A DNA stretch of 64,000 bases from Gonapodya prolifera JEL478. Its lineage: Eukaryota > Monoblepharomycota > Monoblepharidomycetes > Monoblepharidales > Gonapodyaceae. Shown here in pieces: positions 15,391 to 37,378 of the stretch. Location of the stretch: assembly GCA_001574975.1 (NCBI GenBank), contig KQ965789.1, positions 13,658 through 77,657 of the forward strand. Reading direction: 5' to 3'. The notes under the pieces are model-generated. The model worked only from the letters and a program-made list of their open reading frames with translations. It made no database searches and was not told the DNA's origin. Each line of letters begins with the position of its first letter. The first letter of the stretch is position 1. The translations under genes and the position numbers were made by a program.

Positions 15391-16162
15391 ATGTCCGCAC
15401 CCATGCCCACACCCGCGGCGGCTCCTGCCCCCGCCCCTGCGGCGCCCGCCGCGCCTGCTGGCCCACCTCCGCTCAAAAAGGTCCGTATCGGGGAGGGAAA
15501 CGATGGGACGAGGGCGTGGCGATGATGGAAAGAAATGAAGGAACAACAGGAGGGAGGGGGGATCGATGGAGGAGTGTCGTTCGGGTTTGGGGCGATGGGA
15601 GGAGGGGAATGAAAGTGCTGTGTGGCGCACATGTCACAAATGGCAGTCGGCACGGCAGGAACGAGTCGTTCGCAACTCGATGCAGATTTGAAGGGGGGAT
15701 GTTGCGTGTGGAAGAGTGCTTTGACCGGTGCGCGGTGGTGGAACGAGCGTGGTGGTGGCAAAGGACATCGGCGAGGTGGTTGAGACTTGCATCTGTTCCG
15801 ACTGAACAACTCTTGCGTGTTTGAATCTCACCATTGCCCTCTCACTCTATCCCAATCCCCACTTCCATCGCCCACCACATCCACACCCCGTCCAGATCCC
15901 CCTGACGGACTATGTCGGGTTCGACACCATCTTGAAACAAAACGAGCGCAAGTTCCTGCAGCAAGGGTTCCGGTTTAACCTCATGCTGGTCGGGCCTACG
16001 GGGTCTGGAAAGACCACGCTCGTCAACACGCTGTATGCGGCCCACGTTATGGAGGATTCGGGACCCAGGAGCGCCGGAGAGGTTAAGAGCACAACAGAGA
16101 TTCAGGCCGTGACACATCGTGAGTTTCAGGCGTGTGAGGTAGTGGGATTGTGTGTGTGGGGT

Positions 16163-16218
<56 letters not shown>

Positions 16219-17500
16219 GTGGGGGGGGGGGGGGGGAGCCGGAGGTGGAAGAAAACCCGTGTCGATTAGGTTTGCCATATGCACCAGCAAACTGGAATCG
16301 TCTGAGGATTGTCACATATGCCCATGCGTCGGGTGGATGTATTGTCCTATCGTCTTCACATCAACTAACCCTCCCTCCTTCAGTCCTCGAAGAAAATTCG
16401 GTCCGCCTCCGCCTGACCATCATCGACACGCCCGGTTTCGGCGACCAGGTCAACAACGACTCGTGCTGGGATGCCATCGTGCGCTACGTCAAGGAGCAGT
16501 ACGCTGCATACCTTCGTCGCGAGCTTACCCCACAGAGGGAGAAGAGGATCCCGGACACGAGGGTGCACTGCGTGCTCTACTTTATCGAGCCCAGCGGTCA
16601 TGCGTGAGTGTTCCTTGAAGGGCGCTGGAGGGTGGAGCGGATTTGTTTGGAGGTGAAGTGGGGTTCGTTGTAGACCTTATGGGATTGACTAAAGGGGAGG
16701 AGAACGGCGTGGGCTGACGTTGAAGTGGGAGTGGTATGAACTGACCAATGCCTCTGAATGGAACTCACCGTCTTTACTCTTCCCTCTTGATTACCATTCC
16801 ACAACTGTTCCTCGCCATTCGCCACACTTCAAACACCCCGGCGCAGTCTCCGCCCCATCGACATCACCGTCCTGCGCGCTCTCTCGTCCATCTGCAACGT
16901 TGTCCCCGTGATCTCCAAGGCCGACTCGCTGACGCTTGCCGAGCGCGAGGCGTTCAAGGTCCGCGTNNNNNNNNNNNNNNNNNNNNNNNNNNNNNNNNNN
17001 NNNNNNNNNNNNNNNNNNNNNNNNNNNNNNNNNNNNNNNNNNNNNNNNNNNNNNNNNNNNNNNNNNNNNNNNNNNNNNNNNNNNNNNNNNNNNNNNNNNN
17101 NNNNNNNNNNNNNNNNNNNNNNNNNNNNNNNNNNNNNNNNNNNNNNNNNNNNNNNNNNNNNNNNNNNNNNNNNNNNNNNNNNNNNNNNNNNNNNNNNNNN
17201 NNNNNNNNNNNNNNNNNNNNNNNNNNNNNNNNNNNNNNNNNNNNNNNNNNNNNNNNNNNNNNNNNNNNNNNNNNNNNNNNNNNNNNNNNNNNNNNNNNNN
17301 NNNNNNNNNNNNNNNNNNNNNNNNNNNTTCCCGTTCACCAAATGCCAGTCGAGGACCCCGCCCACTGCGAGTTCCCACACCTCCGCCAGTTCCTCACCCG
17401 CACACACTTGCAAGACCTGATCGACACCACCTCGCTCGTGCACTACGAGGCGTTCCGGACACGTCAACTGCTTGCGCTCAAAGAGGGAGGGAAGGCGTGA
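15391..17500 (+). CDS. septin GTPase
   Basis: Septin, a filament-forming GTPase of the cell cortex and division site. Exon 1 (15391-15480) encodes an Ala/Pro-rich leader. Exon 2 (15896-16118) has the polybasic/alpha-0 region YVGFDTILKQNERKFLQQGF and the P-loop GPTGSGKTTLVNTL. Exon 3 (16384-16603) carries the switch II DTPGFGD, NNDSCWDAIVRYVKEQY and the septin phrase DTRVHCVLYFIEPSGHA. Exon 4 from 16847 has RPIDITVLRAL and the G4 motif SKAD before an assembly gap of 361 N. The end has the septin-unique element LVHYEAFRTRQLLALKEGGKA (split here only for description) and no C-terminal coiled coil, as in short septins of the Cdc10 or Cdc11 type. The intron after exon 2 holds an extraordinary G tract. 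The exact septin class is not decided. Confidence 0.92.
16163..16236 (+). repeat. giant poly-G tract in a septin intron
   Basis: A run of about 55 G is followed by AGT and about 16 more G, within the second septin intron. The length is likely approximate because homopolymers this long are hard to sequence and assemble. On the transcript it could form G-quadruplexes just upstream of exon 3. Confidence 0.9.
16967..17327. other. assembly gap (361 N) in septin exon 4
   Basis: Undetermined bases interrupt the C-terminal part of the GTPase domain. Open frames that run through the gap carry no information. Confidence 1.
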
Positions 17501-19043: not shown

Positions 19044-21809
19044 ATGATGGGCGCAGACGGCGGAGACGGAGAGAGAGAGAGGCGCAGAGTGGACCCTGCA
19101 CTTGCACTGCCTGCCGAGATATTTGTGCGGGTGCTGCAGACGATGGGGACGTCACTGGTCAACACGGGCACACACGCCACGCTGTACGACGGCGGATACC
19201 CGCACGTGAGAGAAAGCAGGCGGAAAAAAAGGGAGAGTGATGTCGTCACCGATTCACACTCTGCGTCGGCCGAGAGGAAGGGGAAGGGAAGAGCGGTCGA
19301 CCGAGATGCCGCGCAGGGATCGCAGGCAGACGGCGACGAATCCACGGTGCTGACACCGCAGACTACTCCTACAACGCCACTTCGCCGCTCGGCACGCCTC
19401 GATCCCGCTTCCGCCTCCACCTCCGACGAAGAGGCCCGGCGGGCTTACGAGCCGTGGGACGTCCCGCCCATTCCCGACACGACATTCGACGCCGTCTCCC
19501 TCTTAAGATGCTCGTGGGTGTCGCGTGCGTGGCGGGCGTTCGCGACGGAGAAGGTGCTGTGGGCTGCCCTGTGTGATATGTTGTGGGAGGGCAAGGTGTA
19601 TGTTCCGGAGAAGTTTCGAGAGTTGAGGGACAGGTGGGACTTTTACCTGTCTGCCTTTCGCATGGAAAACTTTGCGTTGATTGACCCTTCTTGTTCGCTG
19701 ATGTAGTGACCCGCGCCGAGCATACGTCGAATCGCTCATCGACTCTCGCAGATTCATCATCACCAAAGAAGGTCCGTCTCTCCTCGCCTATTCCGTCCTC
19801 GCTTCCCCCTACCCACGTTTACCGTCCCTTTCCCTCCCCTCCCTCCAGAACTACTCTCCGTCCCCTGGCACTTCCGCTTCAAATCCTCGGCGGGCGAGCA
19901 CTTCACCGACGAAGACCCCTGGTGGAACCATCTCCCACCCCGCGTTCGTCGTTTCTTACCCGACCACACCATCGAGGGTCTTGCAGTACCCGGGTGGAAG
20001 TGGCGGTTCGTGGATACGAGCGGAGGTGTGAGAGGTCCGAGGGGGGCGTTTGTGAGAGTGGGGAGGACGCCGGCGAGTGTGTTGAGTCGGCATCGGTGGG
20101 TTTTCAAGCTAGATACGGAACGGAACGAGGCGGAGCCGAGTGGAGTCGAGTCGAGCTGTCCGAGCGTAGCGAGGACACCGAGGCCTAAGCGCCGCTAGAC
20201 GCTGACCGAGGCGATCGTCACACGCGGAGCGTATTCCTCCTCCCGAGGCGAATCACCCACAGAGCGTGTATGAGAGCGCGGAGTGCATACCATGGAGACG
20301 GATGAAGTGGAATGCTCATTAAACACTCGACATTCCTGCCCTCCCCTCCCCCACTCTCACGCTCCCCCCATAACACCCCCCCATGCAGCAACTGGGGCTG
20401 GTACATGCAATCCTGCTGGCACGTCCAAACCTCATTCCCGCTCCCTCCACGCAACGTGGAGGGTGAGGACCCGACAGAGGACCCCGAGTTGACGGACGAG
20501 GCGCTCAAAGTGACCACGGGGGTGCAGAAGTATGAAGTATTGTGTTGTGAGTTGACGAAGCGCGTGGGGGATGGGCGGGCGGAGGGGACAGAGGGTACGG
20601 ATAACCAAGTACTGTTGGAGTATCTCAGTCGAGTTGTCACTCACCCGTTGCCTTCCCACCTCGCCCTCCCACTCCCTCCCCCACTTCCACACACCCGGTC
20701 GTCTTACACGCCCAGACAACGCAGGCCTGTCCTACCCCGACGCCACGGTCCTGGACCGACGCGGGTTCCGCTCGCTGTTCCGGGGAGGTCATTACAGCGA
20801 ACGTGCGTTACGGCGGGCGTGGCGGGACGAAGAAGCTGAGTCTGGGGAGGAGGGTGGCGGGAGTGGGGGGGAGGACGGTGGCGGTGGAGGTGGTGGAGGG
20901 GACGACGACGACGGGGAGGATGGCGATGATGGGAGTTACAGGGATGGAAGCCGCGGAGGCAGGAGCGGCCGAGGTGGAGGCGGAGGCGCGGGAGCGAGGA
21001 GGAGTCCGCGGAGGGCGAAACGGCGCCGCCTTGCAGAAGTCGAGGGCACGCGCGGAAGCATGGAGGAGGACGGGTCTTCCGAAGACAACGGCGACGAAGA
21101 CGGGTGGGAGACCGAGAGCGGGACCGAAACGGACGGGTCGGATTTCTCGTCGTTGGAGGATTACCTTGCCACGGTGGTTGGCGTGCATGAGGGAGATACG
21201 GGGGATGAGGAGGAGGATGATGATGAGGATGGCGACGGACATTACCATGATCATGACCATTACCACACGCACGACCATGACGATGACGAGGATGATGGGC
21301 ACTCGCATGACCACGATCACCACCACACCCACGACCACGAGCACGATCATCCGGAGGGCTGGTCCTGGCGGTACGTCCTCGCTCACGTCGGGTCAAGCGC
21401 CTCAGACGAAGACGAGGAGGACAGCGAGTGGGAGTACGCGGCGGACCTTGACGAGGTGATGGTGTCGTCTGGTGAGGGTGAGGATAGGGAGGGTGGTGGC
21501 GAGGGTGGAGCTGGTGGTGGCGGGGACGGAGGCGAAGGTGCAGGTTCAGGTGTTGGATCACCTCGGGGAAGAAGAAGGAGCCGGACGTCGTCGGGAGCTG
21601 GTTCAGCACGGGACAACAGGGCGAAGAAGAAGAGGCGGACCGAAGGGCGTGGTGGCTCCAGCAGTGGAGGGACAGCGGCTGGACCGAGTGAGAGTGGGAG
21701 TGCAGGAGCTGGCGAGTCTTCAAATGGCGGTGCGAGTGGTGGAAGGGGACGAAGTGGCCGCGGAGGTGGACGTGTGAGGTCGGGAGGGACGTCGGGAAGG
21801 GGGAAGTGA
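19044..21809 (+). CDS. F-box protein with acidic, His/Asp-rich and Gly-rich C-terminus
   Basis: Probable substrate adaptor of an SCF ubiquitin ligase. The start at 19044 precedes the F-box helix DPALALPAEIFVRVLQTM. The second half of the F-box region follows a Ser/Thr-rich insert: AVSLLRCSWVSRAWRAFATE, VLWAALCDMLWEGKVYVPE. I infer exons 19044-19633, 19707-19771, 19849-20095, 20389-20594 and 20716-21809, all joined in frame. The middle has W-rich blocks (SVPWHFRFKSS, DEDPWWNHLPP, NWGWYMQSCWHV) that resemble a beta-rich substrate-binding domain. The last exon starts DNAGLSYPDATVLD, then becomes low complexity: an acidic/Gly region, a long His/Asp alternation, an acidic block around WSWRYVLAHVG and a basic Gly/Ser/Arg tail with AKKKRR, a possible nuclear signal. 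No target could be inferred. Confidence 0.75.
21228..21351 (+). repeat. His/Asp alternating tract inside the F-box gene
   Basis: About 40 codons reading HDHDHYHTHDHDDDED and then GHSHDHDHHHTHDHEHDH. Alternating His and acidic residues resemble metal-binding loops of zinc transporters. Codon usage (CAC/CAT, GAC/GAT) is mixed, so it is not a pure DNA microsatellite. Confidence 0.85.
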
Positions 21810-22508
21810 GCCCGGGCGTTAGTGGGATGACCGTAGAATACCGCCCCGGGACAGTTTATCTTCCTATCTCAGACGCACACCCGTGTCTTTAATCGGGTCC
21901 ACGGTTGTCTATGTCTCTGTTTTGATTTGCATTACATTATGTGAGCGCTGACACGTGCAAGTTCGGTCCTATGGAACGACCAACCATCCAAATACCACAA
22001 AACATCCTGTGGAGACTATTGTTGCCAATCACCTCCTGCCACCTAGTATCGTCGTGTTGGCCTGTGTCCGCGGTCGGCATTTTGGAGCAACCGGTTGATC
22101 AGCCGTTAAATTTTTATTTTTCTAACCCTCGTCGTCAATCCACCTGAACATTGCCTGTGCCCTTTGGAGCATTGATTCGACTGCCCGAAATGGCGTTGAA
22201 GTTACCGTGCCCTGTGCGCTTCTCGCTGATCCTCGGCGATTGCTTCCGGCGCCAAGTGCCCCATATTCACACATGCCGGGAACACTTATCCACTGTTTCC
22301 GTTGACGTAATCCAGCCAATAGATTTGTATGTCCATTACTCAAGTTCTTAATTTAAAAAGAATTGTATCCCTCAAAGTACGTAGTCGTGTTCGAAGATGT
22401 TTCAAAACAAAAAGTACAAAAACATTTCTGCCCTCGCCCAACAATGTCATTTTAGTGCGATGTAAGAGCTAGCATCACACTCGCATAAGGTCCACCGTCC
22501 TTCAACTT
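21810..22508. other. intergenic, AT-richer
   Basis: About 700 bases of 3' flank between the F-box gene and the first peptide-family copy, which faces it. No open frame with support. Confidence 0.45.
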
Positions 22509-23121
22509 TCAGCAGCAGTGACTCGTGGGGTTGGAACCCGACTCGTGATGCCACGGTGACCACCTGGAAAGCTTTTCACCCCGCAGTTGCGCCTCTCGGT
22601 CAGTAGCGCTAACACTCCTTTTCTCCTCCTGAACGCGACCAACTCCAGCGACTTGTGCCTTTCGGACCAGGTTGATATTCTCTGGTGCAACGATGGTGTC
22701 GTCGGCGGCCAAGTTGAAAGGGAAGGGCAAGGCTGTGGCGTGGCGTGCGAGAAAAGAGGAGCCATGTGAGACACATGATCGGGACAACAACTGACAGGTA
22801 GGATAATGCGCAAGTTTAGAAGACTGCATCGCCTTTCAGTCGTGGTCCATCTTCAAGACGCGATGAACGCGATATGCATCCTGTTGCATTCGCCAATCCT
22901 CGCATCAAATTCCATTCTGATCTCCGGTGGCCAGTTGGATCTGGTGCATCAACCCCACGCAACCAACGCAACCCACCTTGACTACCTCCCAACAAAGCGA
23001 TGAGCACCGCAAGGACAACTATTTCATTTCGAATCCGGTGCGACGCGGCCAACGAGAAGGTCACATCGGCTCTCACAAACTTGCGAAGCGACGCCCACTC
23101 ACCAACAAGCGAGATCTTCAT
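22509..23121 (-). CDS. small secreted peptide-precursor family, copy 1
   Basis: Exon 1 (ATG at 23121) encodes MKISLV, then a phase-1 intron of about 75 bases. Exon 2 continues VVLAVLIALLGGSQG, completing a signal peptide, and ends at a second phase-1 donor (GTGGGT). The last exon lies in an open frame that ends at 22509; it contains NINLVRKAQVAGV, QEEKRS, a stretch of about 30 residues unique to this copy, and the family terminus SGSNPTSHCC-stop. Here the terminus follows HE instead of KR; the dibasic site lies about 30 residues earlier. The middle junctions are not resolved. No known domain. Inferred role: secreted precursor, possibly cut by a kexin-type protease. It is the most divergent copy. 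Confidence 0.55.
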
Positions 23122-25618
23122 ATGTATCGACGGTGGTGAGAGTGTACCTGTAGAGTGCTGGCTCGAAAGATGACGGCACAGAGACTCAGACGGTTTCGGG
23201 AGCAACACTTGTAGACAAAAGCGGCGGAGAAAACCGCAGCCACTTTCTAAAAGAAGGCGTGACGCACTTGAGCGATGCTTTCCCTTCTGCGGTCCTTATC
23301 GCGCGTGACCCACACATCTCCACACTAATCCACAACTCCGGAGAAAAGCTTTTTCACATGATCGCGGCACGATCCGGCTGGAATCGCGCTTGTTGCTGAT
23401 ATTTCCTGCATCTTACAGATAGAGTTCATTGGTACTGCGTCCTTTCCTGGTGTACCTGGGTGACAAAATTTTGCACAGACCAAAGACAGGACACGCGGCT
23501 CGGGCCGCGGGTACCCACACTGTACACCTCCCTTTTCTTTTTTGCAAATGAGGTGATTTTGGGGTGATGCGTTTGACAAGTTTGGAACAGAAGCTCAAGC
23601 GCAGTGTTGGGGGAGGAGTTTGTGAGTCCGGAAAGATCCGGCCTTAAACGCTTCATGTGTATGGAGATGCGTTAACCTGGTGGGGTGAAGAGTCGGGCAG
23701 TTAAGATAGTTGAGGCTTTGCCTTGAGCTCGCCCGTAGCGAGCGATATTTGTAATTCGTGCCTCCCCGTCGGAGGCTTGAATTAGAATTTGTAGAAAGGA
23801 TTTGATTATGTACCTGTATCTTAACTTGGCAATACACCTGTGACTACTGCCAAGATCTAAACTCTACGACTCAGGGGCCTCCGTGAAGGCCAATCCAGCC
23901 AGCCTGCGCTCCTCTGCGAGCGAGGCGGACCTTCAAGGTGTCGCTCTTCCACATCCCCGAAACGCACTTGCGGTTGCAGGGTATGATCACTGATCAGTGA
24001 CAGCGAGGTCTCAGATGTGCTTGCAGGGTGAGACAAGGTGACGAAGAGGAGCCACACGCAGAATTCCTTGTCCCCGAGGTCAACCACGGCTTGGGCACGT
24101 AAGATGTACACGAGCAGTATCTGCTCCGGCCAGAGGCTCCTGTCGCCGTCGTCCGTCCTCTGGAAGGGTCTTACCGGCAGCCATCTCACCCTCTCTGGGT
24201 CTTCTGACCCTCCGGCCCTGGTGTTTGGGAAGCTCACCTCACTTACAAATCTCACGGACGTCCACGTTGCTGGCCTTGGGCTTGTGAGTATCGGTAGGCC
24301 ATGCTTCTTTGCACAGCAAGCACAGAAGCAGCTCAATCCTTGCAGCAGCTTTGTGGAATGCGACCGTCTGCTTGACGGAAATGGGCTGTGCATGAAGGAG
24401 TCTGCTCTGAGGAACGTCAAAAGCCGTGTTGTAGACCTTCCACTCCAAGTGCTGCAACTGCTCCCCATTTTGGCTTCGGCGCCGCCCGCCGCGGTTGGTG
24501 GACTGTCTGCGCGCCACGACGGAATGCGGCTCGCTCTCCCTCGCGGCCGCATTGCGCCACGGTGGCCAACCTGTCCCAGAGTCACTGCCCTCTATGTCGC
24601 CATCTGGAGGCGCGCCCGAGTGGGAGGTCACGACGAACAACCTTCTGCTATTAATGGACGATGTCAAGGCGTCCTGGATCGCTTCAAGCGCGGTGCGGGC
24701 TCGCTGCGATCAGCTGACACCCACGTTCGCCATCCCTGAGCCGGCTCCTGGTCAGGGCTACCCCCCTTTCCGCTTTCTGGTTCCAGAAGGAGTCTATTAG
24801 AGTTGTTCAAGCTCCTTCGCGGCCATGAATCTGGCCGCCTCGGCCTGTGCTAAGCGGAGGAGATGCGGGCACATTCCAAAGCTGCGAATCCGGCCCCGGG
24901 ACGGCAGTAACGGAACCCCAGGATAAAATTCGCGTGGTTGATGTGAAATCGCCGGTCCTGGGGCCCGTTCGGAAGGGGAAGGCCGGGCAATGGACGTGGG
25001 CTACCCTTGGGTATCTTCGCGCGAGGGACATGAGCACCAGCACCAGGAAACGATCCCCGAACCTCCGTAGATCGTCCAATGGTTGACCGGCGGCCGAGGG
25101 AGCGTCGCCGGGGGCGGGAAAGGTCACCAAAATGGTGGCACAAAATATTATGGCAGCTTTGACACACACCCACAACCTAAAGCTTCGCACCTTCGTTCGA
25201 CCCTCGCTTCGTTCGTGTCTCCCTAGGGGCTCGCAGTAACATAGTGCAGTGGCAATTGTTCTTCGCAAAGACTTCAGGCCCCTTCGTGGCAAAAGGTCCC
25301 GGTGTAAAATAAAGGACGTCCCATACCCCTGCGTTTTTTTTTTCTGAAGCGTCCCGGGCCCACGGACATCCCCGCGCACCGAAGACGTTCCCTGGCAAAA
25401 AATGGAACCGGCACGCAAGTTGTTTCCACCGATTACACAAAATATTATTTTCAAGAGCAGGTCGTTCGCCCGGTACTATATATAGAAGTAAACGAGTTTC
25501 AAAACTGTCACCACGACAAACTATTTACAGAGACGACCATTTGAGTCAGTTAAAGTCCATTTTCAACCCCCCCCCCCCCCCCCCGCACTATTTTTTCAAA
25601 ATGACGATGCGTCGCGTC
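23122..25618. other. 2.5 kb without a supported gene
   Basis: Upstream side of copy 1 and downstream side of copy 2. Long open frames overlap on both strands at 23857-24740 and at 24807-25454 minus. They are GC-rich, have no recognisable domain and conflict with one another; the minus frame with AQAVVDLGDKEFCVWLLFVT is the most protein-like but lacks a consistent gene model. At 23725-23780 two adjacent short hairpins occur (arms GCTCG/CGAGC and GCCTCC/GGAGGC). A TATA-like TATATATA lies at 25479. Confidence 0.4.
25566..25584 (+). repeat. poly-C tract in 3' flank of copy 2
   Basis: A run of about 18 C lies about 35 bases beyond the stop codon of copy 2. A similar tract lies at the same place after copy 5 and a shorter one (five C) after copy 3. 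Confidence 0.85.
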
Positions 25619-26252
25619 TCAGTTGCAGCAGTGCGAGTGCTGGTTGGGATTGGACCGCTGCTCAAGCTCGACGTTGACACTGGCAGTGCTTCCGACGATG
25701 TCGCCCTCATCTGCGGAGACAACGAGGTTGGGACCGGACTGCTGGGCAAGCTCGATGTTGCCACCGGCAGTGCTTCCGACGACGTGGGATTTGCGAGCGA
25801 GGTCGACAACATCGCCCTCGTCTGCGGAGGTAACGAAGGGTACTGGTCGGGCTGGAATTGAGGAAGAGGGTTGGTGAGACAACCCGCCGTGCATGCCAAG
25901 AAAGCCGGAAAAACAAAAGAGATGGGGCAGTCGTTCTTGGTGGACATATCCGGAACATCAACGAGTGCATGTATCATGCACACTATGGAGCGTCCAGTGC
26001 ATCCCGGTACGACCACGCATTCCAGTTCATAGATCCCGGTGTCGAAAACTGTCTCTCCCATTCGCGAGTCCAGATGTGCGCCACCCAAACTCCCAACCAG
26101 TCCTAACAACTCACCATAAGCGAGACCCAGTATCATAAAGCAGATTGCGAGAATAACTGCGTCGAGAGAAGGTGTTCGTTGGTGAGTTGTTGCTCAGATC
26201 GAGTTCCGTCACGTCAACACAGCGGCAACTCACGAGCGAAGGAGACTTTCAT
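25619..26252 (-). CDS. small secreted peptide-precursor family, copy 2
   Basis: Exon 1 from ATG 26252 encodes MKVSFA; the phase-1 intron removes about 70 bases; exon 2 continues LILAICFMILGLAYG. The next exon plausibly begins VFDTGIYELECVVVPGCTG and has several cysteines. The C-terminal frame has ARKSHVVGSTAGGNIELAQQ, followed by an internal duplication: the pattern SADEGD-x-V...GSTA...N-x-EL-x-Q occurs twice. The end is EQR then SNPNQHSHCC followed by one extra Asn before the stop, the only copy not ending in CC. The site before the terminal peptide is QR, not KR. Together these suggest a functional but diverged member. Confidence 0.55.
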
Positions 26253-27324
26253 GAGGAGTAAGGGTGTACGTGAAACAATTGTACGGTCGGGAATGGGTTC
26301 AATTGATTGTGGTGCGGGAGTGTGTTCCAGACCAAGTCTCTTGCTCGAATGTGTACCAAGAGTGACAGGACGCTTGAATGTAAAGACGGAAATGCAATAA
26401 CGGTCCCGTGCCTGACGGGCCGATTTATGGCCCTTGGCAGGGGAGGCAAAGGGAGGCAAGGATTGGTAAGGGCTACTAGATACGAGTCAGGTGTCTCCCG
26501 ATTTTACCACAGGTACGAACAAGGACGGAATATCTAACAAACCGTGCAAAAACCGATTTCTCTTCAGTCGAGAAAATTAAAAAGATGATATTTAGCCGTG
26601 CACGGTGGCGTAGTGTAATGTTTAGATTCTTTGAAGTCCAATCTGTTCTGGTTTGGAACAATCTGATCTACGATCACTTGTTTATGCCTGACAGCAGACA
26701 ACACAAAGTGTAAACAATTCGAGTCATAAAGATGCTTGTTGAAGTTAAAGTACGATGGGCGTCCTGTTAATGCCCTGCTGAGACACCTGCCGAAACAAGT
26801 TCGAAGACCCGAGAGTTTGGCTGTTAGCATTCAGTATGTTTTTGCGTTCATATGCCATGCCCAACGCTGCAGTACTTGAACGCCTTGGAGTAGAGTTATA
26901 TACCGACCAGGCCAGGTCACAACGTTGTTGGTGACGTCAACCTTGTTCGAAAAACGCTGATGTATGGGCGGACTAAACGTTTTACATAAATATAGTTAGT
27001 TCATCAGGTTGTTCTGCTAAAAATGGAAGAAGTAACGCCATCACCGACGCCTTGTGCAGTGACAGACCCGCACAGATAAAAAAGGGTCGGTTGGACGACA
27101 ACCATTGACCACGAAACGCACATCAGAAACGGAATGGAGAGAGAGGTCAAGAAGAGGACATCAAGGACAAGGGGTCAAGAATTCAAGTTGATCATCTTAT
27201 TTTCAAAAGTTATCTCGCCCCGTCTGGAGACTTCAAAAAACGGCTGCAAATAGACTAATCCAATCCCCCAAAAAGCATCTTTCGTGTCGCTAAAGAGAGG
27301 TCCAGCAAACTTCCGCGCTTCAGC
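26253..27324. other. spacer between copies 2 and 3
   Basis: About 1.07 kb with the promoter side of copy 2 and the 3' side of copy 3. From about 26920 it resembles the 3' flank of copy 5 (29450-29870): both share a GACGTCAA-TTGGTTCGAA-like element, CAAGAATTCA, and TGC-ACAAATAGACTA before a C run. Confidence 0.45.
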
Positions 27325-27800
27325 TCAGCAGCAGTGGGTTTTGGGGTTTGAACCGGACCTCTTCTCCTCCTGGATGGTGGCGGCCTCGCGTGGGACAAAA
27401 GACTTGCGAACAAGGCTGGTGTCTTCGCCTATAAGCGGGAGCGGTGAGGCTGTGGAAGACGATTCAAGGTGTGGTCAGATAGTATCAATGCAGCCGACTT
27501 GCGGAACGTAAATCGCAAGGATATTCAGACCGAGTAACACGCCCTGCGTTGCAGATTCATGGATTTACGCATACTCGACCAGCGAATGCCATTCAGCATC
27601 AACGAGTAATCGTGAATTGTCCCACCCAACGGATGATTCCACTGACCGTTTGAAAGACCGAGGAGCATAAAGCAGATAGCGAGAAGGACTGCGAGCGAGG
27701 AGGGTCGGAGTGGACAAGTAAGCATTTTACGCCACAGAGCACGCAGTTCCAAGAGAACTCGGAACTCCAAGTGGCACTCACAAGCAAAGGAGACCTTCAT
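27325..27800 (-). CDS. small secreted peptide-precursor family, copy 3
   Basis: Exon 1 from ATG 27800 encodes MKVSFA; a phase-1 intron (donor GTGAGT, acceptor CTCGCAG) is followed by FLLAICFMLLGLSNG, a textbook signal peptide. The last exon reads STASPLPLIGEDTSLVRK, then SFVPREAATIQEEKR and the terminal SGSNPKTHCC-stop at 27325. The dibasic KR directly before the decapeptide is a kexin-type site. Compared with copy 5, the segment between signal peptide and last exon seems shortened and I could not place the second acceptor with confidence. The DNA around it (3' flank and upstream block) is shared with copy 5, so these two arose by a recent duplication. Confidence 0.6.
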
Positions 27801-28330
27801 GTTGGCAATAGTACTCGATGTACGTAAAGATGTACGGACTTGATAGACGGTACCGAATTCGGTGCGGGTGATGCTCCTGCTGACCCTGAAGTTGATATAT
27901 GGCCGCCAGGCGAAGATGAAGGATCTTGCACGGCGGACTCTCTATGATTCCGAGCCCTTACGGCCCGACTGCTTGTCCGGGTCTGGCGAGGAGCCGGCAT
28001 TGAGCACTCTGCCAGGACGGAAGAATAACAGCAGATAGGTGCAGTCACTAGGAAGTCATGGTGAGTCAGGGAATGTCTCTCCGAGGCTTTGCTAACGGGG
28101 CACAACAAAGGTGGAGACTGTTGGTACCGGTATTGAGTCCTTGTGTACCTTGGGGACAGGATTATTGTCTCCCCGCGCATTTTGTGCCACGTCGGGTCGT
28201 TAACGAACCCACCGGGACAAGAGTGCGTGACTCCGCCAACGTCTCTACCAAAATCTTGCCACATTCACTGATCCACGAGCTTGTTGGGGTACTGACACAG
28301 CTAAAGAAGAGGTTGAAGTTTGCGATACAC
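27801..28330 (-). promoter_or_regulatory. shared upstream block of copy 3
   Basis: Upstream DNA conserved between copies. TTGAGTCCTTGTGTACC (28133) and GTTAACGAACCC (about 28199) recur upstream of copy 5, and CCGAGCCCTTACGGCCCG (27950) recurs upstream of copy 4 (29294). Conservation at nucleotide level with frames that differ suggests promoter or 5' UTR rather than coding sequence. Confidence 0.5.
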
Positions 28331-28686
28331 ATGAGTCAACAAATTGTTGGTCGAAGAAACAGCAAGAGATCGTTTGTTATTACGCAACAGTATTCTATGC
28401 GGTCTAAAACTGTATTCACGTAGAAAAGTAGCACTTCAAAACGTTTTCTTTGTCCGTTCGAGTGCCGCGTTGAAAAATAGAAATATATTGGAGCGAACGT
28501 ATCGTCTGTTTGGCGACATCAAGGTGCAGCCAAGAGAACAAGCGATGCCCACCGATTTGGAACAGGTAAAGCAAGCTGGTCATATTGTCAAAAGTTATAC
28601 CGCGCTACTAACGGATACAAACATTACACTACTCCAACGCCCGGCCCCTGCTAAATCTCGTCTTTAGGATCTCCGTTTTCAGCTTC

Positions 28687-29152
28687 TCAGCAGCAGTGGG
28701 TCCATCCGTTCCCGCCGGACCTCTTTTCCTCCTGCTCACGAGGGAAGAGGGTCCTTCCGCTCGAACCTGACCTCTTGTCCTCGGAAACTACTGGGAGTGG
28801 GGACGCTGTGAAGAATCGAGATGGGGTCTGATCGACAAAGTAGAAGTACGGTAGAACGTAAGACCGAAGTACTCAAGCAGTGGATATCACTCTGCGTCCA
28901 CGACGAATGCCGGAGCCAGGACCACCCACCCGGAGTTGGACGATTCGGCCACAACGCAAGTCGACATCCACGAGATCCAACCCTTGACGTGAATCTCAGA
29001 GCTCACCGCTTACAAGACCGAGAAGCACTACGAGTCCGATCACGAGAAGCACTGCGAGAGAAGAGGTGGGAGCCATGTGAGCATTTCGCGCAGATCCGAC
29101 ACGCAATCAGAGGGAACACTGGCCGGTACTCACAAGCAAACGAGACTTTCAT
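28687..29152 (-). CDS. small secreted peptide-precursor family, copy 4
   Basis: Exon 1 from ATG 29152 encodes MKVSFA; after a phase-1 intron, exon 2 gives LLLVIGLVVLLGLVSG, ending in a GTGAGC donor. The last exon (after TTCACAG) reads SPLPVVSEDKR, SGSSGRTLFPREQEEKR and the terminal SGGNGWTHCC-stop. This copy alone has two dibasic sites in the last exon, so two peptides could be released, of 17 residues (including the trailing KR site) and 10 residues. The family terminus and the split signal peptide are intact. The central exon is not resolved. Confidence 0.6.
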
Positions 29153-29400
29153 GTTGGTGATCGAGAAGATTACGTAACGAAGTACGGTCTCGATAGAAGG
29201 TAACGAGTTCGGGGTGGAAGGTGTTCCTGACCCTAAAGTAGATATCATCGGGACGAGATGAGGTACACCCTCAGAGACGGAATCTTTGTGGTTCCGAGCC
29301 CTTACGGCCCGGTTGATCGACTCGGTGTTTCGGTGTTTGCCGAGGACCCAGCAAAAGTTTGCGGTGCGGCTGCACCATGCCTGCAGGAATGAGAGCAATC
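29153..29400 (-). promoter_or_regulatory. shared upstream block of copy 4
   Basis: Holds the CCGAGCCCTTACGGCCCG element (29294-29311) also found upstream of copy 3, and GTTCCTGACCCTAAAGTAGA, which recurs with few changes upstream of copies 3 and 5. Confidence 0.5.
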
Positions 29401-29877
29401 ATGGATCTCACAGCGAGGAGAAACGTCTTTCCGATGTCTTCCGATGGCCCACCGTACTAACATAGGGTCCTGGCGACGTCAAGTTGGTTCGAAGCCAGTA
29501 GAACAGATAAACGGACTCTACGACGGTTTAACAGTGATGCAAGTAGCAGAAACCTGTCTACTCCCGATCTCTTTTGTGAGTCGGTTGTCGTTGTCGCCAT
29601 GACCTTCACTTTGTACCCTCTCTTTAATGAACACACCTTACATGCCGAAAAGTGGAGAATTAAGTATAGGCAAAAAGGAATCACTCCGAGAGAATAAACA
29701 AAACGCGCAGATTAAGAGGAAGCCAAGAATTCATGCCCATCATATTCTCAAAAGTAATCGCGCCCCACTAAAGATCAACAACTGCTACAAATAGACTACT
29801 GCAAACCCCCCCCCCCCCCCCCCCCCCCCACACCCCATCCAGTTGACCTCTTATTTCGTAACTCCACATTCGACTTC
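29401..29877. other. 3' flank of copy 5 with poly-C tract
   Basis: Spacer resembling the 3' flank of copy 3. A run of about 24 C lies at 29806-29829, some 50 bases past the stop of copy 5. No gene seen. Confidence 0.5.
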
Positions 29878-30374
29878 TCAGCAGCAGTGCGTCCCACTGT
29901 TCGGACCGGACCTCTTCTCCTCCAGCACTGTGACGGCCTCACGGGGGACAAAAGACTTGCGAACGTTCTCGCCGACAAGTGGGAGTGGTGATGCTGTGGA
30001 ACGGAGATCGAGATGATCAATGCAGTCGAGTTGTGAAATCGCAAAGATTGGCAGACTGAGCGATAAGTCCAGCGTTGCAAGCAAAGTCCGAGTCTACACA
30101 TTCGCGAGCGATGAGGTCTGTTCTGCATCACGACGCTACATCCTGAACACCATGCATCCCGCAAATCTTTCATCCGCGAGTCGAATCGACGTCCCCGAGA
30201 TGCAACGCCTCCACACCAATCTTCGCGACTCACCGTTTGCCAGACCGAGGAGCATGAAGCAAATCGCGAGAAGGACTGCGAGCAAAGCGGTCGGAGTCAT
30301 GTGAGCATTTTGCACTGCAGATCACACAGTCCGATGAAATTCAAGTAGCACTCACAAGAAAAGGAGGCCTTCAT
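29878..30374 (-). CDS. small secreted peptide-precursor family, copy 5
   Basis: Best-preserved copy. Exon 1 (ATG 30374) encodes MKASFS, phase-1 intron, exon 2 FLLAICFMLLGLANG, then donor GTGAGT. With acceptor GATGAAAG, exon 3 reads DLRDAWCSGCSVVMQNRPHR and SRMCRLGLCLQRW, a Cys-rich segment. The last exon, after TTCCACAG, reads SPLPLVGENVRKSFVPREAV, TVLEEKR and the decapeptide SGPNSGTHCC-stop. A dibasic KR precedes the decapeptide. The inferred product is a precursor of roughly 100-110 residues: signal peptide, Cys-containing middle, pro-segment and terminal peptide. It is flanked by upstream and downstream blocks shared with copy 3. Confidence 0.65.
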
Positions 30375-30850
30375 GTTGTCGATAGAAATAGATGCACGCG
30401 AAGAAGCCCGGTCTCGATAGAAGGTGACGAGTTCGGCGTGGGAGATGTTCCTGATCCTTAAGTAGAGATGTTGGGACACCGGGACGAGATGAAGTACATC
30501 GAAGACGGAATATTTATGTTTCCGCGGGTTTGCGGCACGGTTGAATGGCGGTGTCTGTTGAGGAGCCGGCAACGTGTGCGATGTCTTGGCGGCGAAGTGA
30601 GAAGAGACAGGTAATGTCCCTGGACCCCGCAGAGGGGGGCAACGTCTTTGCAATGTGTTCCGCCGGCCAAGATAAAAGTATGAGTCCGTAGTATGGGTAT
30701 CGAGTCCTTGTGTACCTGGGGGAGAGGAATCTTGTGTCCCGCATTTGTGCCAAGTCGGGCTGTTAACGAACCCCAGACATGAATGGGTTACGCCACCGCC
30801 ACCTTCACCTACCTCTTGCCGCATTCACTGATGCACGATGTTGTCGTAAT
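30375..30850 (-). promoter_or_regulatory. shared upstream block of copy 5
   Basis: TCGAGTCCTTGTGTACC (30700) and GTTAACGAACCCC (about 30762) match the block upstream of copy 3 in the same order and spacing. GTTCCTGATCCTTAAGTAGA matches the element upstream of copy 4. Confidence 0.5.
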
Positions 30851-31704
30851 ATTGACGGAAACTGAAGACGGGAGCGATGTTGAGGATGGTTATGAGTCAT
30901 TAGACAAACAAACAACCAGTCATCACTTGTTGACATGAGGACGAAATCGCGGTGGTCTTTTACGATGTGTCATATGTGATAAAAAAAAATCGTATCCAGT
31001 CTCGAATTCCGATAACGGTCACTCCCCTGCATAACAATAAGCCCTTTATATTGGCTTTGCGGGACCTCCGCACCTTCTGGCATTACGCCTCTTCGAGTGC
31101 CACGAAAAAAGTAAAGGAGATTCTCCACCAGTCGTAGAAGCTGGGAAATATGGGATGGCGAGGAGTTCTCAACGATGATGACGAATGGCATGTGCAGGCG
31201 TCACTCTCGGAAAAAGCCGATCGTTCTGTAAATATTCAGACGGGATAAACCATCATTGTTTCGCAAATGAAAAAAAAAAAAAAAAAACAAGGCGTCCAGA
31301 GTGCTAGCATCATTCACGCTCTCTGCTTATGACGACTGCCCATAAAGGACCACAGTGGAGTACTGCGAATTACCCCTGCGAGGTCTTGAACAAGTCGTCA
31401 CGCCAGAGGTAACGATTGACCGTTTTCTCCTCCGGTGGAGGTTTTGCTCACTTTCCATCACGGGCGCGCAAAACATTGTGACGTCAGTTCTAGGCGATGT
31501 CGTGGGGCTACACCAGGAGTATCGAGCGATACCTGGAGACCACGTTGTCAGTAAGCACTGCACGTTATGTGACTAAAATATTTTCCCTCGAACGTAAACT
31601 GCTAAGCAAAATCATATTCTCCCGTTCAGTCCTTCCCCAAACCAATCAGACGTAAAGCTGCAAAGTAATTCATAAAATTCTGTACACTATGTACCCCGAT
31701 TCGT
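30851..31704. other. spacer between copies 5 and 6
   Basis: About 850 bases. A poly-A run of about 19 lies near 31268. Short open frames on both strands at 31327-31576 have no recognisable motif. Confidence 0.45.
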
Positions 31705-32125
31705 TCAGCAACAGTGGGTTCCTCCGTTTGCGGTGGACCTTTTCTCATGCATTTCAATGGAGCTTCCAACCACAGCGACCTTGCGAGCGAGACTACCACT
31801 TGATGCAACGTCTTCGAGATCCGAGACGAATAGGGAAATAGGAGAGGCTAGTGTGCTATGAAGGTCGTTCGTGAGTCCACATAGGCAGTGTCGTGTCGGT
31901 GTGATAACCAATCCTGGCGCACTTCCGCGATTCATCTCCCAAGGACAGACGGTGCACGTCACGGAACTCACCTTTCCCAAAAGTTAAAAACGCGAAACAA
32001 ACTGCGAGAAGCATTGAGTGGAGACGTCCAGACCAGCAGTCAGTACTGTACTGTTGCGCCCAGATTGTGTCCTCAGAGACGACACCCGACACCTAACAAG
32101 CACTCACAAGCAAACGAAACTTCAT
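31705..32125 (-). CDS. small secreted peptide-precursor family, copy 6
   Basis: The last exon has SLARKVAVVGSSIEMHEKR and the terminal STANGGTHCC-stop at 31705, with Cys codons TGT TGC where the other copies use TGC TGC. Exon 2 in the family frame reads FCFAFLTFGK. Exon 1 (ATG 32125) is one base shorter than in the other copies, so MKF is read instead of MKVSFA and the standard splice would be out of frame. This copy is therefore either a recent pseudogene, a sequencing error, or uses another start. The conserved C-terminus argues that selection acted until recently. Confidence 0.5.
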
Positions 32126-32776
32126 ATCACTCGATGAGATGGCTTTGACGCAAAGACTTGGGTGCAACAACGGTGATGGGACGCGATGTAAGAAGCCGTC
32201 GGAGCTTGGTAGTTGCGGACCACGATTGGGAGACGACGCACCGGGACAGGCTATCGTAGTCAAAGACGGAAGTGTAGTGATACCGTGACCGGCAGGAGGC
32301 GCTGGCGAGGATCCTGTGCCGACATTGCATCATGAGCTGGGGCCGCAGAGAGCAACGTTCGAGTGACGCGATTACACCGAGACGGACAAGAACAGACCGC
32401 CACCATTGACGTGCGGAGCGTGATTGGTACAGAGTCCGTTGATACCGACCCCTTGTGTCTTGATGACGTTCCGGTATCCTTTGGTGTAGGATTCGGTTAC
32501 ACTTGAAGCCTTTGTATTTGTACGCGCAAAAAGAAATCGGAAGATGCATAGTAACGCAAAACTTGTCGCGCGATCAACGGAATTTTAGCTGGCTGACATC
32601 ATTATACTTGGTGGAGTGAAGATCCCAATGACGCAATCATTTTTGCATACGATTCATCAGACACTACTGCAACTTCCAATTTCCAAAACGCTTCTTCAAT
32701 TTTGCCATACGTTTTTCCCCATTATTTATGTGACTGGAGAACTATTGCGAATCAGAGACTTCCTGCTTTCACTCTT
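32126..32776. other. spacer after the peptide array
   Basis: About 650 bases with the upstream side of copy 6. One open frame of 140 codons (minus, 32127-32549) has no recognisable feature. Confidence 0.4.
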
Positions 32777-33671
32777 CTAAAGCAAACCATCTGCCCTCGC
32801 CGCCCACAAGGCTGCTCCGACAGCCCCAGCAAGGTCTCCAACTATTGGAATGAATCTCAACAGTAGCCCTGAGACAACACCATATGTTGTGACGTCTCCG
32901 CGGTGCACGTCCATCCACGCCGCGACTTCAGAGACATTCCGAAGGATCCCACGTCGCTCGAGATAAGGAGAGAGATCATGGTATGAAGTCTCGCTTGCGG
33001 TAAGATAAGATGCAATCAATGGTCCGACGACGGGAATTGCGTAGAGTGGAAGGCAGAGAAGATTGATCACTGAAGCACGTAGACCGTGATACGGGACTGT
33101 CCCGAGTGAAACTGCCTCCGTAGAAGCCCCCGCCAATACGCCAGATATTCCCATGCTTATATTGTCCACATCAACCCCGTGAAGTTTCAGTACTTCCAAA
33201 ACGACAGTGGTCTTGAGATTGTGAAGCAAATTCCCTGCCACGAGTCGAGTGAGCAAAGCGCCCTCCAGTCCCACGATGAACACTGTCGCAATTGCAGAGG
33301 CGGCAAGGCGATTCCCCAGGACCCGCCTTCGTGCCGTTGCGGGGCGAAGGAAATGCCGGAAGAATGTCAGACTTTCGAAACCGCCGTACGTCGATCGGGA
33401 ATACTCACCTGGAAACACGTTTCTCGAAAAATTGTTTCTGAGGAGTGTAAATAAGAGCAAGGACCGGGATGATGCTGCCGAAGCCGCCTATTGTGCGAAG
33501 GGCCATGGAAGTGGGAATGCTCCTCGCGATGACGGGGGCTTTCAACAGGAGGTCGATGAGGCCAATGATGGGAAAAAATCCCGCTGGTAGAGCACGTAGG
33601 ATTTGGTTTGTGAGGATCATCGATTTGGAATAGCTTCTGTGGTCGAGAACGGAGAAATGTAAACTCAGCAT
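32777..33671 (-). CDS. Rrt8/EI24-like multi-pass membrane protein
   Basis: Polytopic membrane protein resembling the fungal Lds/Rrt8 (outer spore wall, lipid droplet) and EI24 group. The start at 33671 (MLSLHFSVLDHRSY) is followed by an amphipathic stretch and the helix GFFPIIGLIDLLLKAPVIAR. After an intron near 33405 come VFIVGLEGALLTRLVAGNL, the diagnostic INLLCLPLYAIPVVGPLIAS then YLTASETSYHDL, and the block VHRGDVTTYGVVSGLLLRFI followed by PIVGDLAGAVGAALWAA. The pattern of two glycine/proline-rich helices around a Tyr/His loop, then HRGDY-like plus helix and GAALWAA, is typical of the family. Length near 270 residues. It looks intact; the exact acceptor is approximate. Confidence 0.65.
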
Positions 33672-33830
33672 TTGACGTCACTCCAAACAGAGAGTTTCCC
33701 CAAATGGCAAATCCGAGGCCACACCCGATCTTACAACATGTATTCTGGCCTACAGCAAACCAAAATTTCATTCGTGTACTGCCCATAACATCTCCGTCAA
33801 CCGGATTGCCAACTCGTCCCTCCGCTTGAG

Positions 33831-34760
33831 CTAAACGGGCATTCTACCTTTCGGGCCCACGCTAAGCATCCCGAACTCCTTTCCCTCTATAGTGTCATTC
33901 ACGTCAAACTGGGAAATGACGTCGTACCGGCGAAGAAGGTGGCCGAGCACGATCCGGATCTCGTTGCAGGCAAAGTTCCGACGCAGGCAGTTACCAACGC
34001 GTGTATTATGGAATGTCACACAACTTCGATGGGAAGAGACGTGCCACCCACCGCGATCCCATTGAGGAAGGCATGAACGCTCTCTGGTTCAGCATGCCCG
34101 GTCCGTCATGCTCTGCCACGATGTCGCCGCGACTTCTTCTTTTCGATGGGAGGGACTGAAAGTGAACGCTTCTTCTTCTTTGACGAGGGTCGAACTTTCA
34201 AGCCATCGCTCGGAGGTACTTGTCAGATTGTTCCCTCACTTGAAGCTGGTATCAGTAGTTTGATAGTAACAAATGAGGGATTTGCAGAAAGCTCACCACT
34301 TGGGTTCCACTGTGCCACATACACGTTCGCTCGGATTACCGTACCTTTGGGAATACAAGCCGTCCTAGCCTTGCCGTCATGTCCCTTGACAAGTTGTTCG
34401 ATGTCCATTCTTGCCGTTCTCACCATGGCAGGGTGAAAAGACTTCAGTCGCAGCGCGTCCTTCACGCAGCCGTCAAACCACGGGAGCGTCTTCAGTCATG
34501 CGAGCGAAAGCAGCTCCTTCATTCCATTTGGAAACGTGGCATCGAGTTCTTTCCTTGGTCGATCCAGAGCAGTGGGGTTCTTCAGGAGAAACAGAAACTT
34601 CCACCCCATCGTATTTGACGTCGTCTCGGAGCCCGCCAAAAGGAAGATTCGAGCATGTACTCAGATCTCTTCGTCAGTGATAGGCTCCCCAGTCGTCGGG
34701 TCTCGGTGATCAAGAATGATTTAGAGGAAGTCATGCTTGGAAAACCTACATCCATAGTTC
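33831..34760 (-). pseudogene. cytochrome P450 relic
   Basis: Minus-strand pieces of a P450. The I-helix is FLLAGSETTSNTMGW, preceded by ILDHRDPTTGEPITDEE. The K-helix is CVKDALRLKSFHPAMVR, where ExxR has become DxxR. IPKGTVIRANVYVAQWNP follows. The heme-loop remnant is TRVGNCLRRNFACNEIRIVL, which keeps the Cys ligand and the following helix. In-frame stops lie before and after the TDEE segment and frames change between the K-helix and the heme loop, so it is inactive. The N-terminal half is not recognisable upstream. Confidence 0.75.
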
Positions 34761-35376
34761 GCGGCACTCAACAACAATAAGGAGAAAACCTGGGGAAGTG
34801 GTCTTACCTCACTATTCCGGTTCCCATCGACCTGTGGACATTCTGTGAGAACGAATCCTTTCCCGGCGCGCACCCACACCACTTCCAAAACGGAAACGCC
34901 AGACTGAGGCTTAAGTCGGCACATTGTGTAGTGGGTCGAACCACAGGTGACGGATGATGGACGCAATCCAGCGGCCCAGAAGGAAGAGAGCAAACGCAAG
35001 CGCGAGTGAGATGTGACAAAAGGTTCAGCGAGCTGGTGCGGGAGGTGTGACATGGAGCAGCTGAAGCAGCAAAGATGAGCAAATGTTGGCAGGGAAGTGG
35101 CAGAGTTTAGCCGCGGTTCAAAAAGCAGTCACAAGAAGAAAGAACACGCTCAGCAAGCTGGAATTAATTTTCTAAACGACATTGCATCGGCCATACTCGT
35201 GGGTCAATAAACTTTACATTCCAACACCTACTACTCGCTCTAGAAATCTCTAATTTCTAGTTGTAAATGCGTCGATCCTGACATAATCCAATCATACAGC
35301 TTCTCGGCTCGATCGTTATTGACTCGTCTTCTCTCGCATCTCTCATCTCCCCTGCCAGGTGACAGTCGGCTCCCGG
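34761..35376. other. no supported gene
   Basis: About 615 bases between the P450 remnant and the phosphatase. It may hold unrecognisable N-terminal P450 sequence. Open frames conflict with each other. Confidence 0.4.
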
Positions 35377-37378
35377 CTACACCTTGCACCCTTCCTCCCA
35401 CTCCCGATCCCCCATTCGGACTGCTCCCACCACATCCTTCAAAAAGCTCTGAAGTTCGCACAAGGAAGGGTCCGTGGGGTGTCGCGCGATGCACGCCGAC
35501 AGGGTGAGTGGTTTCAGGTTGTGCAGGATTCGCACGTAGTGTGGTGCGGGGTGGGGTGGGGATGGTGGGTCAGATTTTGTAATGGTGGGCGAAGATTTCG
35601 AAGTCGAAGGCGGGGACGGGTTAGTGGAGGGTTTCCAGTTGAGGACGGAATGGCGGGCGCTGTATGGGCGGGTTTCGACAGGCGTTGGAGTGGCGGAGCT
35701 CGCGAGAGATGGCACAGACGACGTGTCTTCGAGCAGCTCGAAGATAACCTAGCGCCAATAGCAACACAATGTTGAGTTGGGGTGCAGCTAATACAATCAC
35801 AGGAGAAACTCACGTTTGATCCGAATTCGGGCCAGTTTCCGTCCCACGCTTTGAGCGAAATAAGGAGCGGTGCGATCGTCCTAACAGTATGAACAACGAA
35901 TGAAGTCAGGTCAATTGGTTCTGCGGACCGCGGTGATCGCGATCGGGAAGGACCCACAACACTCACGCGTCATGCCCACTCCATATCGCCACTTTCTCCG
36001 CCGCGCTCTCCCTTTGCCCAACAGATACATGATGATCATCCACGGGAACAGCAGGCTTCAGTCCAGCAGCGGCCTCGATGCGGTTCGTGATGCGGTTCAC
36101 AAGACGGCCCATGGAGAGGCGGGTGGATTCGAGGGACCCACAAAACGCCTTTTGGTGCAATTCGGCCAGGGAAGTGATAAATATACGCCACAACGGAGTG
36201 GGGTCGTTCTTGGACTCACCCCGTACCACACTCCCGCAAGAACCCTTCCCATGTCCGTGACGGCTTCCTTCGATACCCCAGGTAAGGTGCCCTTGCCATC
36301 GCCCATGAGGCACGCATTGGCGTCGTATAGATCGTGATGGGTAGCGCGGGTCTTGAACCGTTCTGCCTCCTCCTTGCCCCGGGGGATGATGACGGCGTCG
36401 GGGTCGATGTACTGAGGGTACGCGCGTTCAATGGCCGACAGCTGTGGTCGTGCGGACTTTTCGAACTGTGCATTGAAGGAAGCGTAGAGGGTTTGCAGGC
36501 GAGCACAGGTTGAGGGCGGGTTGTAGATGAATTCAGTCTCCATGGGGCGGACGTGGATGGTCAGGTTCAGGCCCGCGCGACGGAGCGACGCGGGGTAGAG
36601 CCCCGCAAGAAGGTACTGCGTCGATTCCATGACGCGAGCGTAGTCGCTACTTTGGACGTGGAGGAGGCCATCGGTCGAGTCCAGCTTCGGGGGCAGGAAT
36701 CCCGTGTGCGCCACGTATCGCTCTCGGAGCAGGGTTCCGATACTTTGCAAGTGCGTTTTGCCACTGTCGGTGAGTTGGCCGAGGTCGCACGTTCCCGGTG
36801 AGTGCTGGATTCGGTCGAGCGCGTGCACGAGGTGGCGGTACGCCCAGGAGGATTTGTAGAAGGGCTCGCCGTGCTCCCCGACGCGTGATCCCCCGCGCTC
36901 CTCGTAGAAGGAGTGGATTGGGATGGGTCGCTCATGGAAGGGGAAAGACGATTCTGCAGCGGGAGCCGGGTCCGACGACACGTGCCCGGAAGCATTGCCG
37001 TTTCCGACCCCATCATTCCCGACTTTCATTCCCGTCCCACCAATGTTGGGATCGTAGTGTGCCTTGCCCTCGCGGGCGACGCTGAGCAGCTCCTGCGCGA
37101 GAAGGCGGGAATGGAGGGTTGGGGCGAGTGCGCAGGAGCGCGAAAAGACGTCCGATGGCATCCAGCGCAGGGAAAACTCGCGTGCGGGAGTGCGTGCGCC
37201 TGGAGAAGTGAGAGTGATCGTGAGTGCATCCGTGGTGTGATGGGAAGTACATGAATATGGCATTTGGGACATGCAAAGCGAGCTCACCGTGTCTGTGCAC
37301 GATCTGGACGCTTTTCAGCTTCAAGTGCTGCGGATACAGCGAGTCCAAGTCCGCTCCACGTTCCATCTGCGCGGCCAT
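35377..37378 (-). CDS. histidine acid phosphatase (ACP6/PXYLP1-like)
   Basis: Branch-2 histidine phosphatase. Exon 1 starts at ATG 37378 (MAAQMERGADLDSLYPQHLK) and carries VQIVHRHG, completed after the intron by ARTPAREF to give the catalytic RHGxRxP. The large exon 2 (37199 to about 36207) has QLTDSGKTHLQSIGTLLRER, YVHxG-like and DYARVMESTQYLLAGLYP. An intron of about 72 bases then joins WYG to AFCGSLESTRLS. Exon 3 ends KVAIWSGHDA, and exon 4 continues TIAPLLISLKAWDGNWPEFG, giving the proton-donor HD motif in SGHD-ATIAPLL. The last exon adds VIFELLEDT and a Ser/Pro-rich insert, ending near 35377. No signal peptide is evident, in keeping with intracellular members that act on lysophosphatidate or phosphosugars; the substrate is not determined. 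Confidence 0.85.

Follow-up and report, generated by a model that had tools for sequence, protein, structure and literature searches.

A Minus-Strand Gene Array in Gonapodya prolifera JEL478 Apparently Encoding Secreted Peptide Precursors with a Conserved Terminal Peptide

A six-copy gene array on the minus strand of a 64,000-nucleotide (nt) stretch of the genome of the water-living fungus Gonapodya prolifera JEL478 very probably encodes secreted precursors, each ending in a short peptide built to a common pattern. The stretch, hereafter the window, is C59:13658-77657 of the 47.6 Mb assembly, and coordinates given below are positions in the window unless a contig is named with them. Release of the peptide by a Kex2-type protease appears likely in most copies. 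Our best, though tentative, explanation is a lineage-specific family of peptide precursors that would be secreted, cut in Kex2 fashion, and active outside the cell, perhaps as a signal. A first-pass annotation of the window had described an apparently undescribed secreted peptide-precursor family; that description is well supported by the signal peptide, by purifying selection, and by a Kex2-type site, which usually ends the pro-region and had been missed there, and a conserved terminal peptide, whose pattern S-x-x-N-x-x-[T/S]-H-C-C had not been recognized either.

Gene models and precursor architecture

Copies were modeled by reading the minus strand of 21500-33000 and fitting splice sites. 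Six copies, c1 to c6, were found between 32125 and 22509, where the first-pass annotation had placed them, and all share a three-exon plan (Table 1). The family as a whole comprises twelve loci, with members or fragments on four contigs (C59, C89, C72, and C121). Seven loci are intact: c2 to c6 in the window, together with c1' and c2' on C89, which are the counterparts of c1 and c2.

Exons 1, 2, and 3 of c2-c6 measure 19, 42-45, and 116-233 nt, the donors are GTGAGT or the close variants GTGAGC, GTCAGT, and GTGGGT, and both introns are in phase 1; exon 2 spans 30-45 nt across all six copies. Copy c1 is the exception. Its exon 1 is 18 nt long and its conserved splice sites do not keep the frame, which is kept in c1'; at 32014, c1 has an ATG in the frame of its exon 2. 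Two traits ascribed earlier to every copy hold for five of six, namely a start of the form MK[V/A/I]S[F/L], where c1 reads MKFRL, and a pair of phase-1 introns. The annotated protein M427DRAFT_34833, named 'Secreted protein' in UniRef, equals c5 residue for residue. M427DRAFT_34834 represents c2 with a different N-terminus, beginning at 30300 inside intron 1; we prefer the upstream start because exon 1 is conserved, five pairs of paralogues sharing 14-17 of its 19 bases.

The predicted signal peptide is of the type MKVSFAFLLAICFMLLGLSNA and is split over exons 1 and 2, with its hydrophobic half in exon 2. It shows a Lys at position 2, a hydrophobic stretch of mean Kyte-Doolittle hydropathy 2.3-3.7 in all seven intact copies, and a small residue at the cut site. 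Signal peptidase sites are expected to follow a rule of the A-x-A type. The codon at the predicted cut is interrupted by intron 2 and encodes Ala in c2-c6 and c2' and Val in c1'. The second piece of the signal peptide had been said to end in G; the piece itself is correctly assigned to exon 2, but the G is the first base of the split codon rather than a glycine. The predicted cut is followed by (S/R/L)-P-x-P and then by a cysteine-free pro-region; [V/A]RK is kept in six of the seven intact copies.

At the C-terminus, ten residues are conserved. Although called invariant before, the end is not: S1, N4, [T/S]7, H8, C9, and C10 are retained, but positions 2, 3, 5, and 6 vary; c1' ends STANGGTHCC, and c2' (SGPNGGTHCC) differs from c2 at position 5. 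Nor do all six last exons in the window close on the same short peptide: five read HCC-stop and c5 reads HCCN-stop. After signal peptide removal, the terminal pair are the only cysteines in every intact copy. KR occurs in six of the seven intact copies, immediately ahead of the core in five, and the site takes the form EEKR or KEKR in six, c5 having EQR. Each intact copy has one full core. An internal tandem duplication in c5 (repeat family D11), covering pro-region and partial core, adds an incomplete second core, SGPN, and c3 has a second KR-SG site.

Statistical support and selection

The sequence TCAGCAGCARTG, with at most one mismatch, occurs six times in the window versus a mean of 0.55 in 100 shuffles, none of which reaches six. 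Five occurrences are array copies and the sixth lies at 59257; c5 is unmatched. Leave-one-out profiles of exon 3, each built without the tested copy and searched against 2,312 open reading frames (ORFs) of the window, recovered c1 at an E-value of 1e-8, c2 at 1.1e-14, c3 at 1.3e-8, c4 at 3.6e-15, c5 at 4e-6, and c6 at 1.6e-5, with the best non-member at 0.11-0.68. A profile of c1', c2, c2', c3, and c4 only found c5 at E 1.1e-6 and c6 at E 0.0032; the next non-member stood at 0.52 and the best reversed ORF at 0.6.

Exons are better conserved than introns between paralogues. Identity between c2 and c4 is 17/19, 37/42, and 93/116 (93/125 columns) in the three exons, versus 0.68 in intron 1 and 0.44 in intron 2; the near-identical pair c1-c1' has no such contrast. 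Non-synonymous change is rarer than synonymous change in c2-c4 (Fisher p = 0.00023), c2-c3 (0.007), c3-c4 (1.3e-6), c4-c5 (0.0045), and c4-c6 (8.1e-5), in tests that used rounded site counts and on pairs that are not independent of one another. Judged by these counts, most intact paralogue pairs (five of the six tested) are under purifying selection.

Table 1. Array copies and the segment missing from the collinear contig C89. The terminal peptide with its stop codon is, for c2, that of the predicted released peptide SGPNSGTHCC; equivalent ends are given for the other copies.
Feature	Span	Strand	Exons	Protein	Site and C-terminal end	Terminal peptide plus stop
Copy c1	31705..32125	-	32125-32108 (18 nt), 32001-31972, 31847-31705		EKR-STANGGTHCC	31705-31737
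Copy c2	29878..30374	-	30374-30356, 30275-30234, 29993-29878	58 aa	EEKR-SGPNSGTHCC	29878..29910
Copy c3	28687..29152	-	29152-29134, 29051-29007, 28805-28687	60 aa	EEKR-SGGNGWTHCC; extra EDKR-SGSSG site	28687-28719
Copy c4	27325..27800	-	27800-27782, 27688-27647, 27449-27325	61 aa	EEKR-SGSNPKTHCC	27325-27357
Copy c5	25619..26252	-	26252-26234, 26156-26115, 25851-25619	97 aa	EQR-SNPNQHSHCCN	25619-25654
Copy c6	22509..23121	-	23121-23103, 23018-22977, 22732-22509	94 aa	EEKR, then 35 residues ending SGSNPTSHCC	22509-22541
Segment of about 5.2 kb holding c3, c4, c5, missing from C89 (comparison with collinear contig)	24242..29470	none

Copies on other contigs

Contig C89 has pieces in collinear order with the window, starting at about 10.6 kb and continuing to its end; they are 74-96% identical, and there are indels and an inverted block. 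It is without the segment listed last in Table 1 and therefore without c3-c5, leaving three copies there versus six in the window. Two of these, c1' and c2', are intact, and c6' runs out of frame after EEKRSVSAT. On C72 we found c7, whose frame is lost at the core, and a 3' fragment, c8; C121 carries the equivalent fragment, c9, with an identity of 83% in an alignment of 1,742 bases, and the 1.8 kb read beyond it contains no c7. A frame resembling a secreted zinc carboxypeptidase, as judged by eye, lies near c9 (L081, C121:136901-138700).

C59 and C89, and likewise C72 and C121, are divergent collinear contigs that differ in gene presence and absence. A survey of MCM genes found seven loci on single contigs and one apparent pair (C134/C149); the assembly therefore looks mostly not doubled, and divergent paired contigs look like a minority. 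C59 and C89 may be two haplotypes or a segmental duplicate. No telomere repeat was seen in the four readable of five 10-kb contig end pieces, the first 10 kb of C59 reading N.

A search for genes ending in [T/S/R/W/C]-HCC with a TAA or TGA stop, a pattern that misses TAG stops and ends like that of c5, gave 57 matches versus 19 for a reversed-pattern control. Nine belong to the arrays already described on C59, C89, and C72, and one is the C121 fragment, with SLGNERTHCC. The remaining 47 do not, on inspection, show S-x-x-N-x-x-[T/S]-HCC, although six have KR near the end. By eye, two of the six (L054 and L072) resemble the antisense strand of a single membrane-protein gene family; the others, L052, L063, L066, and L067, are frames of 13 residues or less. 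Copy c6 also gave two weak protein matches, one on C9 (E 0.25) and one on C64 (E 2.2); neither locus has a DNA match to window positions 20000-36000.

Relatives in databases and literature

A profile search of 5.77 billion proteins, with E-values up to 10, returned two matches, M427DRAFT_34833 (c5) and M427DRAFT_34834 (c2), both hypothetical proteins of this genome, and the seven-copy alignment used as query returned the same two. Because this search requires shared five-residue words, distant relatives could be missed. Pfam gave nothing better than E 0.17 and PDB no match. Within these searches the family is undescribed, as first proposed.

As a control for orphan status, a neighboring phosphatase gene searched in that database matches Gonapodya sp. 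JEL0774 with 60% identity, and the congener is thus represented. Absence of the family from the JEL0774 protein set is weak evidence nonetheless, because annotated proteins were found for only two of the twelve loci even in JEL478 itself. The locus-tag prefix M427DRAFT was not found in openly licensed PMC papers, and the openly licensed PMC literature joining 'Gonapodya' and 'Kex2', at the level of the matching text, concerns protease families. The main texts of two surveys of Kex2-processed repeat proteins (KEPs; PMC6339444, PMC7329392) do not mention Gonapodya.

Processing and candidate functions

P-domain family profiles match the genome at C15 and C7. At C15, adjoining minus-strand frames match Peptidase_S8 (E 1.2e-21) and P_proprotein (E 3.6e-21) and are followed by what looks, by eye, like a transmembrane stretch. 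Because the S8 and P domains lie on adjoining frames there, a kexin-like gene is present; a kexin is, by its domain content, encoded in the same genome. We propose that signal peptidase would cut at the split codon and that this kexin would cut after EEKR or KEKR in the Golgi, releasing one peptide per precursor, whose two cysteines could pair only with each other or with another molecule. In the last and least certain step, the peptide would serve as a diffusible extracellular ligand, more likely a cell-to-cell signal than a structural or nutritional protein.

A signal peptide, a pro-region, a Kex2 site, and a short conserved C-terminus with variable inner positions make up the pattern of secreted peptide ligands. 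Secreted ligands or defense peptides commonly show one core per gene, differences in copy number, and a variable inner core; all three are seen here, the copy-number differences being between homologous contigs. A hormone or pheromone role is plausible, known fungal pheromone cores do not match, and signaling is the function that we would put first, with reservation.

Several observations weigh against a released signaling peptide. QR replaces KR ahead of the core in c5, and the KR of c6 stands 25 residues upstream of the core, so that its predicted product is 35 residues long; release of a ten-residue peptide is therefore not uniform. The recent pair c2-c2' lacks a synonymous excess (2 synonymous and 5 non-synonymous changes, p = 1). 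Five of the twelve loci look decayed, with frame lost in c1, c6', and c7 and fragments in c8 and c9. No receptor was identified: genome searches for STE2 and STE3 gave no match, although no control genome matched either and an exon-by-exon search can miss such genes.

In an improbable refinement of the signaling hypothesis, a flagellated, oogamous fungus would use the products as peptide pheromones or as attractants for sperm. They would be small ligands capped by cysteines and read by a receptor unrelated to STE2 and STE3, and two divergent versions of a single locus would differ in the copy number and sequence of these ligands. Oogamy with uniciliated male gametes is described for the Monoblepharidomycetes, a class with which Gonapodya is listed (PMC6492006). 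If the pheromone reading were true, a peptide mating signal would have been invented independently of Dikarya.

The alternative that fares best, although unlikely, is a ribosomal defense peptide, either an antimicrobial or a ribosomally synthesized and post-translationally modified peptide (RiPP), in which the Kex2 fragment would be cyclized or cross-linked through its cysteines and would harm competitors. Tandem copies, variable core positions, and copy-number change fit an arms race. Known dikaritin cross-links use Tyr or Phe, however, and neither residue occurs in any core. Fungal peptides released by Kex2 do include RiPPs (PMC7329392), but a genome search for UstYa (PF11807) gave no match, with the same limits as the receptor searches. 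No biosynthetic gene was seen among the window ORFs covered by our Pfam scan, 18 of the 40 of at least 180 aa. If the role were defense, the family would amount to a new and compact scaffold for peptides, ending in a Cys-Cys pair.

Conservation of H, C, and C in all seven intact copies would also suit an extracellular metal- or redox-active peptide whose His-Cys-Cys end would hold copper, zinc, or nickel or close into a vicinal disulfide, and the window contains, more than 21 kb from the array, a fragment of a P-type ATPase (PF00122). This explanation is improbable: it leaves the equally kept S1 and N4 unaccounted for, and no metal-related gene was recognized near the array among the 18 ORFs scanned. 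Quite improbable too is a surface or cell-wall peptide of repellent or adhesive type, disulfide-linked into a layer. Paired terminal cysteines could polymerize, and Ustilago Rep1-type Kex2 peptides play such a role (PMC7329392), but the core is short and polar, neither hydrophobic nor repetitive. A decaying relic or tandem-duplication artifact of no present function, to which the out-of-frame and fragmentary loci and the pair c2-c2' could point, is very improbable given the non-synonymous rates below synonymous rates in the other five pairs and the conserved splice sites.

A non-coding or transposable element family, the explanation that the first-pass annotation had itself named as fatal to its proposal, is rejected on the coding constraint and the lack of dispersal, members or fragments having been found on four contigs within the limits of the searches. 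Prenylation of the C-terminal CC in the manner of Rab proteins was set aside because the precursor would enter the secretory pathway.

Other features of the window

Runs of 24 G (29806-29829) and 18 G (25567-25584) on the minus strand lie a few dozen bases past the stop codons of c2 and c5. The P-type ATPase fragment (E 2.3e-7) is at 341-1006 on the minus strand, and a septin gene, with PF00735 on two frames, is at 15806-17500 on the plus strand. A dispersed repeat of about 172 bp at 6770-6941 has about 40 listed places across the assembly, mostly at 91-95% identity. Parts of a stretch at about 54464-57417, probably a mobile element, are repeated with 88-93% identity on C51, C55, and C83. Scanning the window against Rfam (gathering threshold) and for tRNAs found nothing.

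Comparison with known systems

The array supplies concrete short peptides for synthesis and for testing on zoospores and gametes, and several described systems offer points of comparison. KEPs, as presented in the two surveys cited above, resemble the family in having a signal peptide, a pro-region, KR sites, and short released peptides. Repeats are what define KEPs, whereas each gene of the family carries a single core at its C-terminus, and the duplication in c5 and the second KR site in c3 would be a possible first step toward repetition. One survey applied a minimum of three repeats and also recorded alpha-pheromone precursors with a single peptide (PMC6339444).

Ascomycete alpha-type pheromone precursors are similar in their signal peptide, Kex2 site, and peptides 9-24 residues long, some of which have two cysteines (PMC6339444, PMC3068285). 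The core sets them apart: that of the present family is SxxNxx[T/S]HCC and not of the W-C-x-x-G-x-x-C-W type, the alpha consensus used for the comparison. One account (PMC12842992) reports STE2 receptors from Ascomycota alone and STE3 mainly from Ascomycota and Basidiomycota. HPP1 hybrid-type and a-type pheromone precursors share a cysteine near the C-terminus, and HPP1 has Kex2 sites as well, but these precursors are described as ending in a CAAX prenylation box (PMC3068285), whereas the family ends in HCC or HCCN behind a classical signal peptide.

Dikaritin-type RiPPs such as ustiloxin likewise have a Kex2-flanked core in a secreted precursor (PMC7329392), unlike the family in that its core is not repeated and UstYa was not matched in a genome search in which no control genome matched. 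Sirenin and parisin of Allomyces are likewise pheromones of a zoosporic fungus, but are sesquiterpenes, not peptides (PMC3834313).

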